Assembly (NCBI GenBank): GCA_009773515.1
Contig: WSXX01000002.1
Coordinates: forward strand, 124,001 to 188,000
From: Bacteroidota bacterium
Lineage (GTDB): Bacteria; Bacteroidota; Bacteroidia; Bacteroidales; Lentimicrobiaceae
Length of the DNA stretch: 64,000 nucleotides
Direction: 5' to 3'
Within the stretch, counting starts at the first letter, position 1. Every line of letters starts with the position of its first letter. Under the pieces are notes generated by a model that searched no databases, was not told the origin of the DNA, and worked only from the letters and a program-made list of their open reading frames with translations. The position numbers and the translations under genes were made by a program. Positions 23,305-30,931 of the stretch are shown in pieces.

Positions 23305-23769
23305 ATGAAAAAATTGATTTTCGGACTGATTGTCCTGGCTTTTATGGTTTCTTCATGCAATGAAACCATTGAAAAAGAAGTAAAAATAGTTGAGGATACT
23401 TTAGCTGTTGCTCCCCGCGACGGTGTATTTTATCACATTTCGAGCGGCCCCGACGATCCGCACAAGGTGGTTATGGCCCTGAAGCAAGCGGTGATGATGG
23501 CAGAAGACAAAGATGTTCTGATCTACTTCGACATCAAAGGCATCGAAGTGGTGCTTAACGACGCTCAGGATGTAAGTTATCCTACATTTCCCACTTCAAA
23601 GGAATCGCTGAAACAATTGATGGATAAGGGAGTAACTATTTTCGCATGTCCAGCCTGCCTCAAAGCTGCCGGTAAAAGTGAAGCCGATCTGATGCCCGGA
23701 GTTAAACTTGCCGAAAAAGAGATGTTCTTTAACTTTACAAAAGGCCGTATTCTGACGCTGGATTACTAA
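23305..23769 (+). CDS. DsrE-family-like lipoprotein
   Basis: 154 residues with a lipoprotein signal ending VSSC (Cys 18) and a mature domain resembling the DsrE/F sulfur-relay fold: HKVVMALKQAVMMAEDKDVLIYFDIKG, and a Cys pair in ACPACLKAAGKSEADLMPGV (Cys 115 and 118). DsrE-like proteins carry persulfide or handle thiol redox on a conserved Cys; anchoring it outside the inner membrane is notable. It is transcribed opposite to and convergent with the DUF302 gene of the redox cluster. Role unproven. Confidence 0.72.
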   Translation: MKKLIFGLIVLAFMVSSCNETIEKEVKIVEDTLAVAPRDGVFYHISSGPDDPHKVVMALKQAVMMAEDKDVLIYFDIKGIEVVLNDAQDVSYPTFPTSKESLKQLMDKGVTIFACPACLKAAGKSEADLMPGVKLAEKEMFFNFTKGRILTLDY

Positions 23770-23791
23770 TCAGATTTAAAATCAACAAATA

Positions 23792-23827
23792 AAATAGCCG
23801 GATTCAAATCGATGAATCCGGCTATTT
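23792..23827. terminator. Bidirectional terminator in the redox cluster
   Basis: 15-bp perfect stem: AAATAGCCGGATTCA (23792-23806) pairs with TGAATCCGGCTATTT (23813-23827), between the convergent DsrE-like and DUF302 genes. Confidence 0.8.
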
Positions 23828-23847
23828 ATTTCTCAGAAAAAAGGACT

Positions 23848-24318
23848 TTACAGCACCGATTTCAGTATCTCTTCAGTTTCATTAAATGCCTGTACCATGG
23901 TTTTAGCGGCATCACCGCCTATCATGCCGGCAAAAGCGGGTGCATTCATACGCGAAACATATGTTTTACCATCTGCCTTTTCATATACTGAAACACGACA
24001 GGGAAGCATAGGTGTTACATCGCGCTGCGTATCTTTTGACAGTATCTGATAAGCGTGTCCGGGATTGCAAAGTTCAATTACCTTGACAGGCAAAACTTCC
24101 TTGCTGTTTTTCTTCATGGTTTCCTGAAGATCATGTATTGTTGTGACTTTCCAGCCCTTTTCAACAATTGATTGCGACAACAAGTCAACAGTTTTATCAA
24201 AGTCGTATTTGCTCCGGGATTCAATCATTACACCCGACTTTTCTGTGACATCGGTTTGAGCTGTTACCATTAGCGAAGTTGAAATTAAAAAAATGGTGAA
24301 TAGTTGTTTGATTTTCAT
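23848..24318 (-). CDS. Secreted DUF302 domain protein
   Basis: 156 residues with a cleavable signal peptide (hydrophobic 4-20, VTAQ) and a DUF302 domain. The domain keeps two family Cys contexts, ELCNPGHAY (Cys 84) and MLPCRVSVYEK (Cys 107). DUF302 proteins have no established enzymatic role, but some bind heme or occur with thiol enzymes. It lies 81 nt after the thioredoxin gene on the same strand, suggesting a place in the same periplasmic redox module. Confidence 0.8.
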   Translation of the reverse strand: MKIKQLFTIFLISTSLMVTAQTDVTEKSGVMIESRSKYDFDKTVDLLSQSIVEKGWKVTTIHDLQETMKKNSKEVLPVKVIELCNPGHAYQILSKDTQRDVTPMLPCRVSVYEKADGKTYVSRMNAPAFAGMIGGDAAKTMVQAFNETEEILKSVL

Positions 24319-24399
24319 GGTTCTGGTTTTTTTGTTGATTGGTTAGAATTCAGCAGAACTGAAAAAATTCAGGTCAATTGAAGCATGGATTTTCAGCTG

Positions 24400-24819
24400 C
24401 TATAAATGCTTATTCACCTGTTTTATCAGGTAATCTTTTGGTTTTACCCCGACAATGCGGTCCACTTCTTTCCCATCACTAAACACCACAATGGTAGGAA
24501 TTCCTCTTATTCCGAATTTTTGCGAAACAGACTGAAAGTGATCTACATTCAGCTTGGCCACAGTAGCTTTAAAGTTTTCATCTTCGGCCAGTTCATTCAA
24601 TACCGGCCCCATCACTTTGCAAGGCATACACCATTCGGCCCAGAAATCTACCATAACTACTCCCTTTTTGATTTGATTCTGGAAGTTTTTATCGGTAAGG
24701 GTAACTATTTTTTCACTTTCAGGCACAGCTCCCATGTTTTTCATTTTTCGGAATGAATAAAGCATATAAGCGACAAAAAGTGAAACCAAGGCAATGGCAA
24801 TAATGAGTCCTGTTGACAT
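24400..24819 (-). CDS. Membrane-anchored thioredoxin
   Basis: 139 residues: an N-terminal hydrophobic helix (about 4-22), then a full thioredoxin domain with the active site WAEWCMPCK (Cys 64 and 67) and the cis-proline loop RGIPTIVVF. The Met in WCMPC replaces the usual Gly. The first helix probably anchors it in the membrane, and the flanking positive charges (FRKMKN) after it suggest the domain faces the cytoplasm, where TrxB could reduce it. Its gene starts one base after the trxB stop, so the two are co-translated. Confidence 0.88.
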   Translation of the reverse strand: MSTGLIIAIALVSLFVAYMLYSFRKMKNMGAVPESEKIVTLTDKNFQNQIKKGVVMVDFWAEWCMPCKVMGPVLNELAEDENFKATVAKLNVDHFQSVSQKFGIRGIPTIVVFSDGKEVDRIVGVKPKDYLIKQVNKHL

Positions 24820-24820
24820 A

Positions 24821-25783
24821 TCAGTGGGTTAATGATTCGTGTAAATGTTTGGTTTTCAGTTGATGGATGTAATTCGAAGCAGCCAGCGCAGCAATAGTTG
24901 CATCGCCAACAGCAGTGGTAACCTGGCGGTAACGTTTTACTATGGAATCACCGGCAGCATAAACACCGGGAATACTGGTGAGCATATCGCTGTCAACAAT
25001 GATTTCGTTCCATTTGTTCATATTTAATGTTCCCTTCAGAAATTCTGTATTTGGAACATAGCCAATAAAAATAAACACGCCATCTGTTTTAAAATCTTGA
25101 ATTTCACCGGTTTTAAGGTTTTCTATTTCAACACTTTCAAGCTTGTCATCTCCAATGAATTTCACGATAGAGGACTCCATGATAAAATTGATTTTATCAT
25201 TTGCTTTGGCTTCTTCCACAGCATATTCAAAAGCCTGAAAATGGTCAAACTGATGAACAATTGTAACTTTTGTTGCGTATTTGGTAAGTGAAACAGCCTC
25301 TTCGAGGGCTGAGTTACCGCCACCGACTACAACAATTTCTTTACCGGTAAAGAAGTCACCATCACAGGTGGCACAATATGAAATACCTCTGCCTTTAAAC
25401 TGCGCTTCGCCTGGCATATTCAGCGTACGCGAACGCCCGCCGGGGGTAAGAATAATCGCATTGGCTGTGTAAATACTTCCATCAGAAAGTGTTACTTCTT
25501 TAATTTCACCTTCAAGGTTAAAGCTATCAACCGATGTATTCCCTTTTATAACGCAGCCAAATGTTTTGGCTTGTTTCTTCATAATGTTTGAAAGCTGGTA
25601 TCCTGAAATGCTTTCCACGCCCGGATAATTTGCAATTTCGTGTGTAAGTACCATTTGTCCGCCCAACACTCCATCACTTATGATGAGTGTTTTAAGCCTT
25701 GCCCTGGAAAGGTAAATGCCTGCAGTCATACCTGCCGGTCCACCTCCTATAATTATGGCATCAAAATGATTATTTTCAGTCAT
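24821..25783 (-). CDS. trxB: Thioredoxin-disulfide reductase
   Basis: NADPH-dependent flavoenzyme of 320 residues. FAD-binding GGGPAGMTAGIYLSRAR, the redox pair CATCDGDF, the NADPH fold VVVGGGNSALEEAVSL, and the C-terminal FAD motif GVYAAGDSI are all present. It reduces the adjacent thioredoxin. A hexamer array with hairpin potential separates it from the upstream thioredoxin-like gene. Confidence 0.94.
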   Translation of the reverse strand: MTENNHFDAIIIGGGPAGMTAGIYLSRARLKTLIISDGVLGGQMVLTHEIANYPGVESISGYQLSNIMKKQAKTFGCVIKGNTSVDSFNLEGEIKEVTLSDGSIYTANAIILTPGGRSRTLNMPGEAQFKGRGISYCATCDGDFFTGKEIVVVGGGNSALEEAVSLTKYATKVTIVHQFDHFQAFEYAVEEAKANDKINFIMESSIVKFIGDDKLESVEIENLKTGEIQDFKTDGVFIFIGYVPNTEFLKGTLNMNKWNEIIVDSDMLTSIPGVYAAGDSIVKRYRQVTTAVGDATIAALAASNYIHQLKTKHLHESLTH

Positions 25784-25796
25784 TTTAGTCGTTTTT

Positions 25797-25870
25797 GAGG
25801 TTGAGGTTAAGGTTAAGGTTGAGGTTGAGATTGAATTGTTGTTCTAAACCTTAACCTCAGCCTTAACCTT
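25797..25870. repeat. Hexamer array forming a long hairpin
   Basis: Seven 6-bp units of the RAGGTT type (25797-25838) followed by four in inverted orientation (25847-25870: AACCTT, AACCTC, AGCCTT, AACCTT). Positions 25809-25832 can pair with 25847-25870 over 24 bp with three mismatches. The inverted half shares an 18-base stretch with the array at 11709-11756. Confidence 0.8.
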
Positions 25871-25887
25871 TAAAGCTCATTATAGAA

Positions 25888-26244
25888 TTAGCTTACTGTT
25901 ACAGGTACAAACTCTTTGTCGAGAATTGTCCTGATTTGAGCGGGGCTTTGAATGCTTGAAGTTGCTTTTACAAGTTTCCCGTTTTTGTAGTACATGGTAA
26001 AGGGAATTCCCATAAAGCCGCGTGTTTCAGGAGCATTACGAATTACATAAGCCTCAGGATTATCAAATTCCATATCGGCAAATTTTACGTGTTTGTATTC
26101 GTCTTCGAGATCTTCCATTATCCCGTAAACCGGAATACACATGGGGCCCATACGGCCACAGCAGATCATTACATTTTCGTGTTCGTTGATAAGCTTCTGA
26201 TGATCAGCAGCTGTTAGTAAGTGATGAAGGTTTGTGTAAAGCAT
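25888..26244 (-). CDS. Thioredoxin-fold protein with an altered active site
   Basis: 118 residues that align with thioredoxin over the whole length: ENVMICCGRMGPMCIP, then EDLEDEYKHVKFADMEFDNP, and the cis-proline loop RGFMGIPFTMYYKNG. At the active site the CxxC is replaced by GPMC (residues 33-36): the nucleophilic Cys position is Gly, while a CC pair lies upstream (Cys 28, 29). It sits between trxB and osmC on the same strand. It may be a specialised redox or metal-binding thioredoxin relative; the chemistry is not predictable. Confidence 0.75.
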   Translation of the reverse strand: MLYTNLHHLLTAADHQKLINEHENVMICCGRMGPMCIPVYGIMEDLEDEYKHVKFADMEFDNPEAYVIRNAPETRGFMGIPFTMYYKNGKLVKATSSIQSPAQIRTILDKEFVPVTVS

Positions 26245-26276
26245 GATATTTTGTTTTTAGTTTGGTTTAAATTGAA

Positions 26277-26360
26277 GTCAGATGTCAGAGGTCAGAGGTC
26301 AGAGGTCAGAAGGCAGAAGGCAGAAATTAGAAATTAGAAATTAGAAATTAGAAATTTTCT
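26277..26360 (+). repeat. Heptamer array of 12 changing units
   Basis: Twelve contiguous 7-bp units drifting in sequence from GTCAGAT, GTCAGAG (x3) through GTCAGAA, GGCAGAA (x2) to ATTAGAA (x4) and ATTTTCT. It ends ten bases before the osmC stop codon. Positions 26277-26298 are identical, in reverse complement, to 33581-33602. Confidence 0.9.
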
Positions 26361-26369
26361 TATTCTCCT

Positions 26370-26792
26370 TTATTCCATCTCAAGTATCCTGATCTCATAA
26401 GTGAGTTCCATTGCTTTGCGATAAACCGCTGAAACGCCGCAGTACCTGTCCTGAGAAAGTTCAATGGCTTTTTTGAGTTTATCTTCTTCCAACCCTTCAC
26501 CTGAGAATTCGTAAATCAGATGCATTGAAGTGTAATGTTTGGGATGCTCTTCGGTGAGTTCAGCTTCAATTATTATATTGAAAGTTTTGGGTTCAACCCG
26601 CATTTTCTTCAGTATGGAAATTACATCCATACCGGTACAACCGGCAAGCGAAGCCAGCATCAGGGCTTTTGGTCTTGCACCGGCATTGCTGCCGCCCACT
26701 TCGGGACTTGCATCCATAATAACATGATGATCGCCAACCAATGCATCAAACTGCATATTGCCGTTCCAGGAGGTATTTAAAGTCTGTTTCAT
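26370..26792 (-). CDS. OsmC/Ohr family protein
   Basis: 140 residues with the OsmC fold and its two catalytic cysteines: Cys 52 in LAGCTGMDV and Cys 118 in DRYCGVSAVY. It is closest in pattern to the YhfA-type OsmC group rather than classical Ohr. Such proteins reduce organic or lipid hydroperoxides using thiols. It is the first gene of the minus-strand redox run toward trxB, preceded by a good promoter. Confidence 0.87.
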   Translation of the reverse strand: MKQTLNTSWNGNMQFDALVGDHHVIMDASPEVGGSNAGARPKALMLASLAGCTGMDVISILKKMRVEPKTFNIIIEAELTEEHPKHYTSMHLIYEFSGEGLEEDKLKKAIELSQDRYCGVSAVYRKAMELTYEIRILEME

Positions 26793-26813: not shown

Positions 26814-26844
26814 CAAAATTACACCCAACATCAATGCGCTGCAA
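26814..26844 (-). promoter_or_regulatory. Putative promoter of the osmC redox run
   Basis: TAATTTTG (26821-26814) with TTG at 26844-26842, spacer 20 nt, followed by CAG; the leader to the ATG at 26792 is about 15-18 nt. Both elements match consensus. Confidence 0.6.
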
Positions 26845-28926: not shown

Positions 28927-30192
28927 TTACCGGTTCATGGTTTTCTCCTTCAGATCATCGATGAGCGTTTGCCAATCATACCCCAGATTACTTACCAGTG
29001 CTTCCATGCGGTTTTCGCGATAGGCAGCCATAAACGCATCCTTGCCGGCAAGCTGAATCAGGTTATGGGTAAAGATTCCTGCTACACTGTAATTCTCCAT
29101 TCCTCTGAAAAAGAGCACAGATTCGCCGGTGATCAGCTCAGTAGTCAGGTTATTCTGATGCGCTTTAAAAACCTCAAGATCATGTTCATAGGCCTCTTTG
29201 CTGAAATAATAATCAGTGGCCTGCCTGAATCCTTCGTCAAAAAATGCCGAAGGGGCTTTACCGATGGCAGAACCAATAATGCTGTGGCCTGCTTCATGTT
29301 TGCATATGTCCATGCTTAAACCGGCGATGTGATTGATATCGCCGAATGATTTCCCATGAATGGTTGACCAGAGCGGGGCAGCAATAAAGTATTGAAGTTC
29401 CTCTCTTGTCTGGTAAAAATAGGTAACAAAACGGGGGATTAATGCTGAATCAACCTCAAGATACCGGCAAAGACCGCTTACAAAGCCATCAAAGTCCTTT
29501 ACTGAATTATTAAAACCAGAGGTGTCAGAAATTGAGGATGCAATATAAAAATCGGCAAAAAGGCCCTTAACCCGATTACCGAAATAAGCAGCGCGAAGGG
29601 CATCCATTTCATTTATCAACTGGTCCTTTTTTCCATCAGCCTGAAATCCGCTGTAAATAATCTGATTGCCGCTGAATACGTAGAACTGGTAAGCTCCGGC
29701 CATAAAACCAATATATGCCAACGGATGATCTTCCCCGTTGCGGCAGGTATAAATCCGGGTTGCCTGATTGTTTATGTGATAAAAAGCATCGTTGGGGTGC
29801 CCGAACATCCTTCCTTCAAATGAAAATCCATTGCGCTCAATTCCAAAGGGTAGACCATCCATTGCAGCAGTTGAAAAACGAAAACATGGCCCGAAATACT
29901 GCAGGTGCTTTTCATAATCCGCTTTTTTAAGCAATGATTCCTGCCGGAATACATATACCGGCTTTTCCTTCCAGAAAACAAAACCACAAACCGCAACTGA
30001 GTCTTCCGGTTTTATGTTGTATCCATCAGGCAAAACCACAATTATTGTGTCAGTTTCATAAAACCTGACCATCAGTTTTACACTGTCATCCATGGCAACA
30101 AAACCTGCGGGCTGCGACCAGCTTTTAACAGCGAAAGATACCTGCAAAAGCAACAAAACTGTGATGAAAACTGATTTGAAAATTCTTTTCAT
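28927..30192 (-). CDS. Secreted protein with novel N-terminal module and HEAGH metallopeptidase domain
   Basis: 421 residues with a signal peptide (about 1-26). Residues 30-180 match the stand-alone paralog upstream (TDTIIVVLPDGY; FVFWKEKPVYVFRQES; FGPCFRF; IYTCRNGEDHPLAY; MAGAYQFYVFSG). The C-terminal part has HEAGH at 299-303 and FFDEGF with Glu about 320, a zinc-binding pattern of gluzincin peptidases (HExxH plus downstream Glu). A zinc protease acting outside the inner membrane is likely; its substrate and the N-terminal module are unknown to me. Two dyad sites lie upstream. Confidence 0.7.
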   Translation of the reverse strand: MKRIFKSVFITVLLLLQVSFAVKSWSQPAGFVAMDDSVKLMVRFYETDTIIVVLPDGYNIKPEDSVAVCGFVFWKEKPVYVFRQESLLKKADYEKHLQYFGPCFRFSTAAMDGLPFGIERNGFSFEGRMFGHPNDAFYHINNQATRIYTCRNGEDHPLAYIGFMAGAYQFYVFSGNQIIYSGFQADGKKDQLINEMDALRAAYFGNRVKGLFADFYIASSISDTSGFNNSVKDFDGFVSGLCRYLEVDSALIPRFVTYFYQTREELQYFIAAPLWSTIHGKSFGDINHIAGLSMDICKHEAGHSIIGSAIGKAPSAFFDEGFRQATDYYFSKEAYEHDLEVFKAHQNNLTTELITGESVLFFRGMENYSVAGIFTHNLIQLAGKDAFMAAYRENRMEALVSNLGYDWQTLIDDLKEKTMNR

Positions 30193-30310: not shown

Positions 30311-30931
30311 TCAATTCTGTGCAACTGATGTCATGCGCCCGATATGAAACCACACCCTTGATGCAATGCGTTGCTCCATTTCTTCCGGCACATCCGGTAA
30401 AACCATCTTGCTTCCGCTGAAGATATAAAGTTGATAAGCACCAGCCATGCATCGGGCATAGGATAAAGGAAAGTTCTCACCATTGCGGCAAGTATATAAT
30501 CTGTTCCCGGCCGTATTCATAAAATAGAATGCATCTTCAGGATTCTGATAATCAGTGCCATTGAATGAAAATCCATGAGCATTAATTGCAAACGGTATTT
30601 CCGAATCAAATGAATTGGTAAATCCGAAACATGGGCCAAAGAAATGCAGGTGCTTCTGAAGGTCAGAAGGTGTTAGTTCTGATTCTTGTTTAAAAATGTA
30701 CGCGGGTTTTTGTTTCCAGAAAACGAAATTTCTGATTTCGTCTTCGTCACTTTTAATAATTGAATAGCCATCAGGCAAAACAACTATGATGGTATCTGCT
30801 GCGTAAAAGCTGATCATTTGCTGAATGTTTTTGTCCATGGCGGTTAATCCATCAGGATTTGCCTTGACATTTGCAGCAAGCATCATCATCATGCCACAAA
30901 AAAGCGAAATTGCAGTGGTTCTAAAGCTCAT
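30311..30931 (-). CDS. Secreted protein, stand-alone paralog of the peptidase N-terminal module
   Basis: 206 residues with a signal peptide (about 1-24). It aligns with residues 30-180 of the downstream HEAGH protein at high identity (ADTIIVVLPDGYS; NFVFWKQKPAYIFKQES; HFFGPCFGF; LYTCRNGENFPLSY; MAGAYQLYIFSG) but then ends in a short unrelated tail and has no peptidase domain. The frame is intact, so it is not obviously a truncated pseudogene. Tandem duplication followed by loss or gain of the protease domain is inferred. Conserved Cys residues (GPCF, YTCRNG) may form a disulfide. Function unknown. Confidence 0.7.
   Translation of the reverse strand: MSFRTTAISLFCGMMMMLAANVKANPDGLTAMDKNIQQMISFYAADTIIVVLPDGYSIIKSDEDEIRNFVFWKQKPAYIFKQESELTPSDLQKHLHFFGPCFGFTNSFDSEIPFAINAHGFSFNGTDYQNPEDAFYFMNTAGNRLYTCRNGENFPLSYARCMAGAYQLYIFSGSKMVLPDVPEEMEQRIASRVWFHIGRMTSVAQN

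Follow-up and report, generated by a model that had tools for sequence, protein, structure and literature searches.

Thioredoxin reduction is usually viewed as a single pool fed by NADPH, and the systems closest to the one described here are the canonical TR1/NTR reductase with its thioredoxin, the DvTR3/DvTrx3 pair of Desulfovibrio vulgaris, the clostridial ferredoxin-linked reductase FFTR, and AhpF, which uses NADH. Two reductases that have no HRR motif, DvTR3 and the enzyme of T. maritima, prefer NADH (PMC5627308). The stretch analyzed here is a 64-kb window of Bacteroidota DNA (below, the window), in which a gene cluster at 23305-26792 carries a thioredoxin reductase, TrxB, without the arginines of NADPH recognition, next to a small thioredoxin-fold protein without CXXC, TrxL. 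No other partner of TrxB is as constant as TrxL, and the two form the core of the module. We see an even chance that the minus-strand genes are a dedicated cytoplasmic thiol-reducing module built on this core and fed by NADH. An earlier note on this DNA had placed six open reading frames (ORFs) in the cluster, five of them on one strand; all six were present at those places, five on the minus strand and the DsrE gene on the plus strand, facing them. The features are as follows.

26814-26844, minus strand: promoter motif TTG-N20-TAATTTTG upstream of OsmC, found by motif scan
26370-26792, minus strand: protein of the OsmC family (P0006), whose gene opens the run, assigned by Pfam and NCBIfam
25888-26244, minus strand: TrxL (P0005), which has a thioredoxin fold but no CXXC and carries the motif CCGRMGPMC (C28, C29, C36), assigned from Pfam, a model and conservation
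24821-25783, minus strand: TrxB (P0004), a thioredoxin reductase of the low-Mr type in which CATC and GGGNSA are present and HQFDHFQ replaces HRRDxxR, assigned by NCBIfam and alignment
24400-24819, minus strand: membrane-anchored thioredoxin (P0003) with WCMPC and a single N-terminal helix, assigned by Pfam, charges by reading
23848-24318, minus strand: DUF302 protein (P0002), assigned by Pfam, signal-peptide-like N-terminus by reading
23792-23827, no strand: perfect 15-bp inverted repeat with a 6-nt loop and T-rich flanks in the gap between DUF302 and DsrE, a likely bidirectional terminator
23305-23769, plus strand: DsrE-like protein (P0001), a convergent neighbour, lipoprotein-type N-terminus by reading (LPAM_1 below its cut-off)

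The family calls made earlier for five of the proteins held, all of them scoring above the Pfam cut-offs (DsrE, E 3e-9; DUF302, 5e-17; Thioredoxin, 5e-28; Pyr_redox_2, 4e-55; OsmC, 2e-17). Three features were absent from the earlier note: the loss of the NADPH arginines from TrxB, the position of TrxL as the steadiest partner of TrxB, and the 15-bp hairpin that isolates DsrE.

The signature residues of TrxB were compared with those of known reductases. The 2'-phosphate motif VxxxHRRDx[F/L]R was missing from the window TrxB, which reads VTIVHQFDHFQ, while the CxxC active site, the G[R/K]G ... Phe residues for thioredoxin docking (KGRGISYCATCDGDFF) and the pyrophosphate motif GGGxxAxE (GGGNSALE) were all present. 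Its best NCBIfam match was TIGR01292, at 337.0 bits just below the cut-off of 343.45, and its top solved relative, PDB 2q7v (E 5e-75), has HRRD at the corresponding place. The second TrxB of the genome is canonical and retains RRD..RA (VRRDELRAS). Among 107 unique TrxB homologues adjacent to TrxL, 103 were read by script and one (L088) by eye, the other three being too short for the motif, and RRD occurred in none of these 104. The script-read sequences had HQFDxFQ (95), HQFNxFQ (4), HEFDxFQ (2), HQFAxWQ (1) or HMLDxFQ (1), and L088 had SQNAHFK. A GGGxxAxEE-type motif was intact in 103 of the 104, the exception again being L088 (GSGNSA). When 18 rows of the HQFD type were aligned with the window TrxB, all retained CATC, the pyrophosphate motif and FF, and 17 retained the G[R/K]G docking site, as KGRG or KGKG in most rows and RGRG in L103; the exception, L059, reads KGQG. 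The AhpF encoded at one locus, L113 (TIGR03140, 774 bits against a cut-off of 503), likewise has no arginines at those columns. A tree meant to date the HQFD group had outgroup branches that were far too long for it to be of use. The data showed that TrxB is not a TR1 by signature, nor a TR3, nor an FFTR, because the arginine motif is gone, the docking site differs from that of TR3, and GxGxxA is kept.

Gene order was examined in relatives. Of 18 other genomes of the same genus, 14 have TrxL, and 13 of these 14 loci, several on short contigs, were expanded. In all 13, OsmC, TrxL, TrxB and the anchored thioredoxin were co-directional and in the same order, and DUF302 followed the anchored thioredoxin in 12; the remaining locus, L035, stops at the contig edge. 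In a wider set of 80 named Bacteroidota loci, the best 80 of at least 536 confirmed candidates by similarity to TrxL, TrxB adjoined TrxL in 73, with a nominal median gap of 1 nucleotide (nt) in the 69 mechanically called pairs. A thioredoxin followed TrxB in 50 of these loci, and DUF302 and DsrE occurred anywhere in 25 and 9, respectively. Some of the 80 share contigs with another locus set of this analysis. The closest named records among the matches listed include Lentimicrobium sp. and metagenome-assembled genomes (MAGs) of Lentimicrobiaceae. Prolixibacter bellariivorans (L094) and Proteiniphilum acetatigenes (L113) are also among the named carriers. The neighbourhood is thus not random in relatives, in agreement with the earlier proposal that the grouping is not due to chance. 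TrxLs, weak matches left out, were 56-92% identical to P0005, and TrxL had no match on plasmids.

Co-occurrence of the two genes was then counted in a phylum sample of 395 genomes and an order sample of 178. TrxL was counted at E < 1e-40, which dropped 8 of 28 phylum matches and 2 of 57 order matches as weak or partial, and TrxBs with HQFDxFQ were located by DNA pattern. In the phylum sample, TrxL was present in 20 genomes and the pattern at 38 places in 33 genomes, 20 of which places (19 genomes) lay beside TrxL; in the twentieth TrxL genome, G444, the adjacent TrxB reads HQFN. The other 18 places were all translated, and 17 were not TrxB, the last (G275) being a contig-edge TrxB in a TrxL-bearing genome. 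The genome overlap had a hypergeometric P of 1.4e-22, the species not being independent. In the order sample, 55 genomes had TrxL, 43 had the pattern and 39 had both; by coordinates the genes were adjacent in 37 of the 39 (ten also seen as TrxB, 27 judged by coordinates and not translated), cut by a contig end in G033, and not adjacent in G464. The 16 TrxL genomes of the order without the pattern comprised six with an adjacent TrxB of variant motif, one that was cut, and nine without an adjacent TrxB. The five off-site pattern places of the order (four pattern-only genomes and an extra place in G574) were not TrxB. In both samples a TrxB with exact HQFDxFQ was therefore always accompanied by TrxL in the same genome (19 genomes of the phylum set and 39 of the order set), and TrxL sometimes had no TrxB next to it, so the dependence is one-sided.

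The fold and cysteines of TrxL were also analyzed. The 118-residue protein had been taken for an altered thioredoxin fold, and this was borne out: it scored 13.4 bits for PF00085, below the cut-off of 23.5 (E 0.08), with GPMC in place of CXXC, and a confident AlphaFold2 model (mean pLDDT 90.7) agreed. The best Foldseek match of the model in PDB was thioredoxin 3hhv (E 1.9e-7, TM 0.72 by query length), and the modelled fold includes a putative cis-Pro region, where by reading GIP precedes the next strand. In the model, C28 and C29 lie in strand 24-30, and C36 stands immediately before helix 37-46. In an ungapped alignment by eye, C36 falls on C35 and G33 on C32 of E. coli thioredoxin. C36 was present in all of 123 unique TrxL sequences (contigs entered twice were removed), C29 in 120 and C28 in 75; two of the three TrxLs without C29 have C28, and the third, L072, has neither. 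C28 was rejected as a redox partner at 75 of 123. By conservation and modelled secondary structure C29-C36 is the likeliest CX6C candidate pair, because C36 is invariant and C29 nearly so, and C28 is far less conserved.

In the mechanism that we infer, TrxB would accept hydride from NADH, not NADPH, and pass it through FAD to its CATC disulfide. NADH is the proposed donor because the arginines that bind the 2'-phosphate are lost while the dinucleotide-binding GGGNSA is kept. TrxB would then reduce TrxL, which would work by Cys36, at the position of the resolving cysteine of an ordinary thioredoxin, and Cys29, which ends the preceding strand. The anchored WCMPC thioredoxin may be a second acceptor, tethered to the membrane on its cytoplasmic side. 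OsmC would be a client or an accessory part, as would Grx, DUF302 and enzymes of sulfane sulfur in some lineages.

Several observations weigh against this mechanism. NADH as donor is not proven, because some reductases that accept neither of the two nucleotides, NADH or NADPH, have lost HRR as well (PMC5627308). Among the 52 TrxL genomes of the order with readable downstream sequence, nine have no TrxB adjoining TrxL, and the two genes lie apart in G464, so the pair is not obligately linked and a reading of it as obligate was weakened. Seven of the 80 loci have no adjoining TrxB; L101 ends right after TrxL, and in L114, L129 and L130 TrxL is followed by the anchored thioredoxin with no TrxB between. 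The TrxL of L072 has neither of the cysteines that could pair with C36. In L129 a DsbD_2 protein (73 bits, cut-off 24.9) is encoded on the strand opposite TrxL, about 7 kb away, and a motif search of 1413 called ORFs found a similar DsbD-type protein about 10 kb off, at the far edge of L120. The 80 loci were also picked by TrxL similarity, and their species are not independent.

It is unlikely that TrxB takes electrons from a non-pyridine donor such as ferredoxin or another protein, with the HQFD segment as a docking surface and TrxL acting as a specific acceptor or contributing to the donor interface. Reductases without the arginines that are fed by ferredoxin or by unknown donors are described (PMC5627308, PMC10880999), HQFDxFQ is near-invariant (95 of 104), more so than expected if a binding site had simply been lost, and membrane Fer4_5 proteins recur as neighbours in 11 of the 80 loci. 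This explanation is opposed by the GGGxxAxEE-type motif, intact in 103 of 104 sequences, whereas the clostridial FFTR that has been described lost both nucleotide motifs (PMC10880999).

We hold equally unlikely the explanation that TrxL is a single-thiol handler of persulfide or peroxide, in which Cys36 takes up sulfane sulfur or is oxidized and TrxB resets it, as part of a sulfane-sulfur detoxification module. C36 alone of the three cysteines is invariant, and L072 has no partner at 28 or 29; against this, C29 is retained in 120 of 123 sequences. Genes of a sulfur type were seen at some loci: L129 encodes a protein like CoA-disulfide reductase that contains three rhodanese stretches, L085 encodes one like QmoC, and L130 has a PhsA-like molybdoprotein together with a Sulf_transp protein, the first three scoring below their NCBIfam cut-offs. 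A flavoprotein with distant similarity to type III SQR was present at 11 of the 80 loci. These genes occur in a minority of loci, counted with no background control, and in the genus cluster no sulfur gene besides DsrE was seen. The DsrE lipoprotein was not significantly associated with TrxL in the 178 order genomes (5 of 55 with TrxL against 6 of 123 without, P 0.32; 2 of 13 DsrE matches were dropped as weak). For the sulfane-sulfur part of the earlier note, the genes at some relatives' loci offer a setting, weakened by their minority and by the DsrE count. DUF302 co-occurred with TrxL in the same genomes (40 of 55 against 42 of 123, P 2e-6, phylogeny not corrected), and in only 9 of the 55 did the two share a contig at a distance of about 6 kb or less.

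DsrE was rejected as a member of the unit; it is present in 8 of 13 same-genus loci, yet it is convergent, beyond the hairpin, and uncoupled from TrxL across the order. The DsrE lipoprotein is probably outside the unit, and the hairpin is likely a bidirectional terminator.

The topology of the anchored thioredoxin bears on the proposal that the genes move reducing equivalents or sulfur across the membrane. The 80 loci gave 68 thioredoxin rows, of which 51 had a hydrophobic N-terminal segment; three that resembled lipoproteins or signal peptides were set aside, leaving 48. Positive charge was greater after the helix, on the side of the catalytic domain, than before it in 41 of the 48, equal in six and reversed in one. 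Because of this charge distribution, which P0003 shares by reading, the catalytic domain is predicted to be cytoplasmic and should face the cytoplasm. Trans-membrane transfer does draw on the export-type N-termini of DUF302 and DsrE (by reading), on one thioredoxin being membrane-bound, and on DsbD-type proteins elsewhere in the genome (one DsbD_TM match, a 698-residue frame on contig C32) and within about 10 kb at the two relatives' loci above (L129 by Pfam, L120 by motif); because of these proteins it was raised very slightly. The predicted topology, a window cluster without any DsbD-type gene and the uncoupled DsrE speak against it, and the claim of transfer across the membrane was not supported; as a relay of electrons or sulfur it was put low on the topology and the DsrE co-occurrence, and we judge it improbable.

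An ordinary NADPH thioredoxin system with sequence drift and a degenerate, non-catalytic TrxL is hardly credible, for all the similarity of TrxB to characterized TrxBs such as PDB 2q7v and a TIGR01292 cut-off missed by only 6 bits, since TrxL is strongly conserved, HQFDxFQ is found in 95 of the 104 adjacent TrxBs, and the genome keeps a separate TrxB with RRD..RA.

P0006 belongs to the OsmC/Ohr superfamily (PF02566, 63.7 bits against a cut-off of 27.5), and in 26 of the 80 loci a co-directional OsmC gene precedes TrxL by no more than 1.2 kb. The promoter ascribed to it earlier was recovered as a motif: TTG-N20-TAATTTTG occupies positions -52 to -22 relative to the start codon. We take motifs of this type to be the Bacteroidota promoter consensus. 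The pattern TTG-N18-22-TAnnTTTG had eight matches on both strands of the whole window and none in the 130 bases upstream of each of the other five cluster genes. A sigma-70 promoter scan gave 12 matches against a shuffle mean of 10.3, which is no excess. Of the 74 loci whose upstream DNA reaches far enough, 46 have a divergent regulator of the Crp/Fnr type (PF00027 and PF13545) within 1.5 kb upstream of TrxL. It is missing from ten genus-like loci (L058-L067), and in the window's genus OsmC with its own promoter motif stands in its stead.

The minus-strand gaps, by ORF coordinates, are 125 nt between OsmC and TrxL, 104 between TrxL and TrxB, 1 between TrxB and the anchored thioredoxin, and 81 between the latter and DUF302. 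Short tandem repeats of 6- and 7-mers occupy much of the TrxB-TrxL gap (25795-25870) and of the TrxL-OsmC gap (26274-26356). The methyltransferase P0007, next upstream, was rejected as a cluster member, with no match in the loci of 20 relatives. Farther along the window, two adjoining genes (28927-30192 and 30311-30931) encode secreted proteins that look paralogous by eye, and the first has two matches in the relative locus L058.

Other arrangements were seen around these families. A fusion of 422 residues, with an N-terminal thioredoxin (ECPPC) and an HQFD-type TrxB (CATCDAKYY), occurs in six of the 80 loci (L074, L083, L092, L108, L114 and L126) and in L203. It reads HQFDTFTA or HQFDAFTA past the motif, and the HQFDxFQ DNA pattern did not catch it. 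It lies near DUF302, and at several of its loci an ArsM-like methyltransferase and a radical SAM protein are encoded too. The fusion may represent a branch linked to arsenic or selenium. The source genome encodes, by eye, a second DUF302 protein with no obvious export signal near a rhodanese-like gene (contig C36; L057, 8345-8731). Two further proteins are repeatedly encoded next to TrxL, in different classes of the phylum: a YruB-type glutaredoxin, placed in Bacteroidia behind a thioredoxin-like part, and one resembling Cpn10 (for example L141, -549 to -15, and L146, -695 to -138, relative to TrxL; clusters c8 and c13). At L085, a MAG titled Bacteroides fragilis has the cluster near the QmoC-like gene, and the name looks doubtful for such gene content.

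The data suggest that many Bacteroidota have, beside the ordinary circuit, a second and separate one for thiol reduction that probably draws on NADH. More specifically, and with less than even confidence, we propose tentatively a separate Bacteroidota thioredoxin system of an NADH-fed HQFD reductase and a CX6C (C29-C36) partner, kept apart from the NADPH pool and linked in some lineages to the handling of sulfane sulfur or arsenic. If so, many environmental Bacteroidota would run two thiol pools on different electron carriers, with a second conserved reductase that has specifically lost NADPH recognition and a partner whose redox center departs from CXXC. The pairing predicts which genomes carry the system, and it gives a cofactor test and two cysteines to mutate. 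No description of TrxL paired with an HQFD-type TrxB was found in open-access titles and abstract openings, subscription journals being mostly outside that coverage.

Among the known systems, AhpF resembles TrxB in its missing arginines (sequence from L113), but it is longer and has an N-terminal thioredoxin-like region; the window TrxB reached 265 bits for TIGR03140 against the cut-off of 503, in a match confined to the reductase part. The canonical TR1/NTR with thioredoxin shares with this locus the family, CATC, GGGxxAxE and docking residues of TrxB and the thioredoxin fold of TrxL, and differs in HRRDx[F/L]R, which is HQFDHFQ here, and in the CXXC that TrxL does not have. FFTR is also without HRRxxxR, but the FFTR described in PMC10880999 is without GxGxxA as well, whereas the window TrxB keeps GGGNSA. 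TR3 was found only in Clostridia and Deltaproteobacteria (PMC5627308), and the window TrxB is from Bacteroidota; at the G[R/K]G site TR3 has CxQ, with His for the Ser before CxxC and mainly P at the Phe site, where the window TrxB has KGRG, S and FF. The same paper describes DvTR3/DvTrx3 as a TrxB paralogue without HRR that keeps GGGxxAxE and has its own atypical thioredoxin, with a canonical system elsewhere (PMC5627308), an arrangement like that of TrxB and TrxL.

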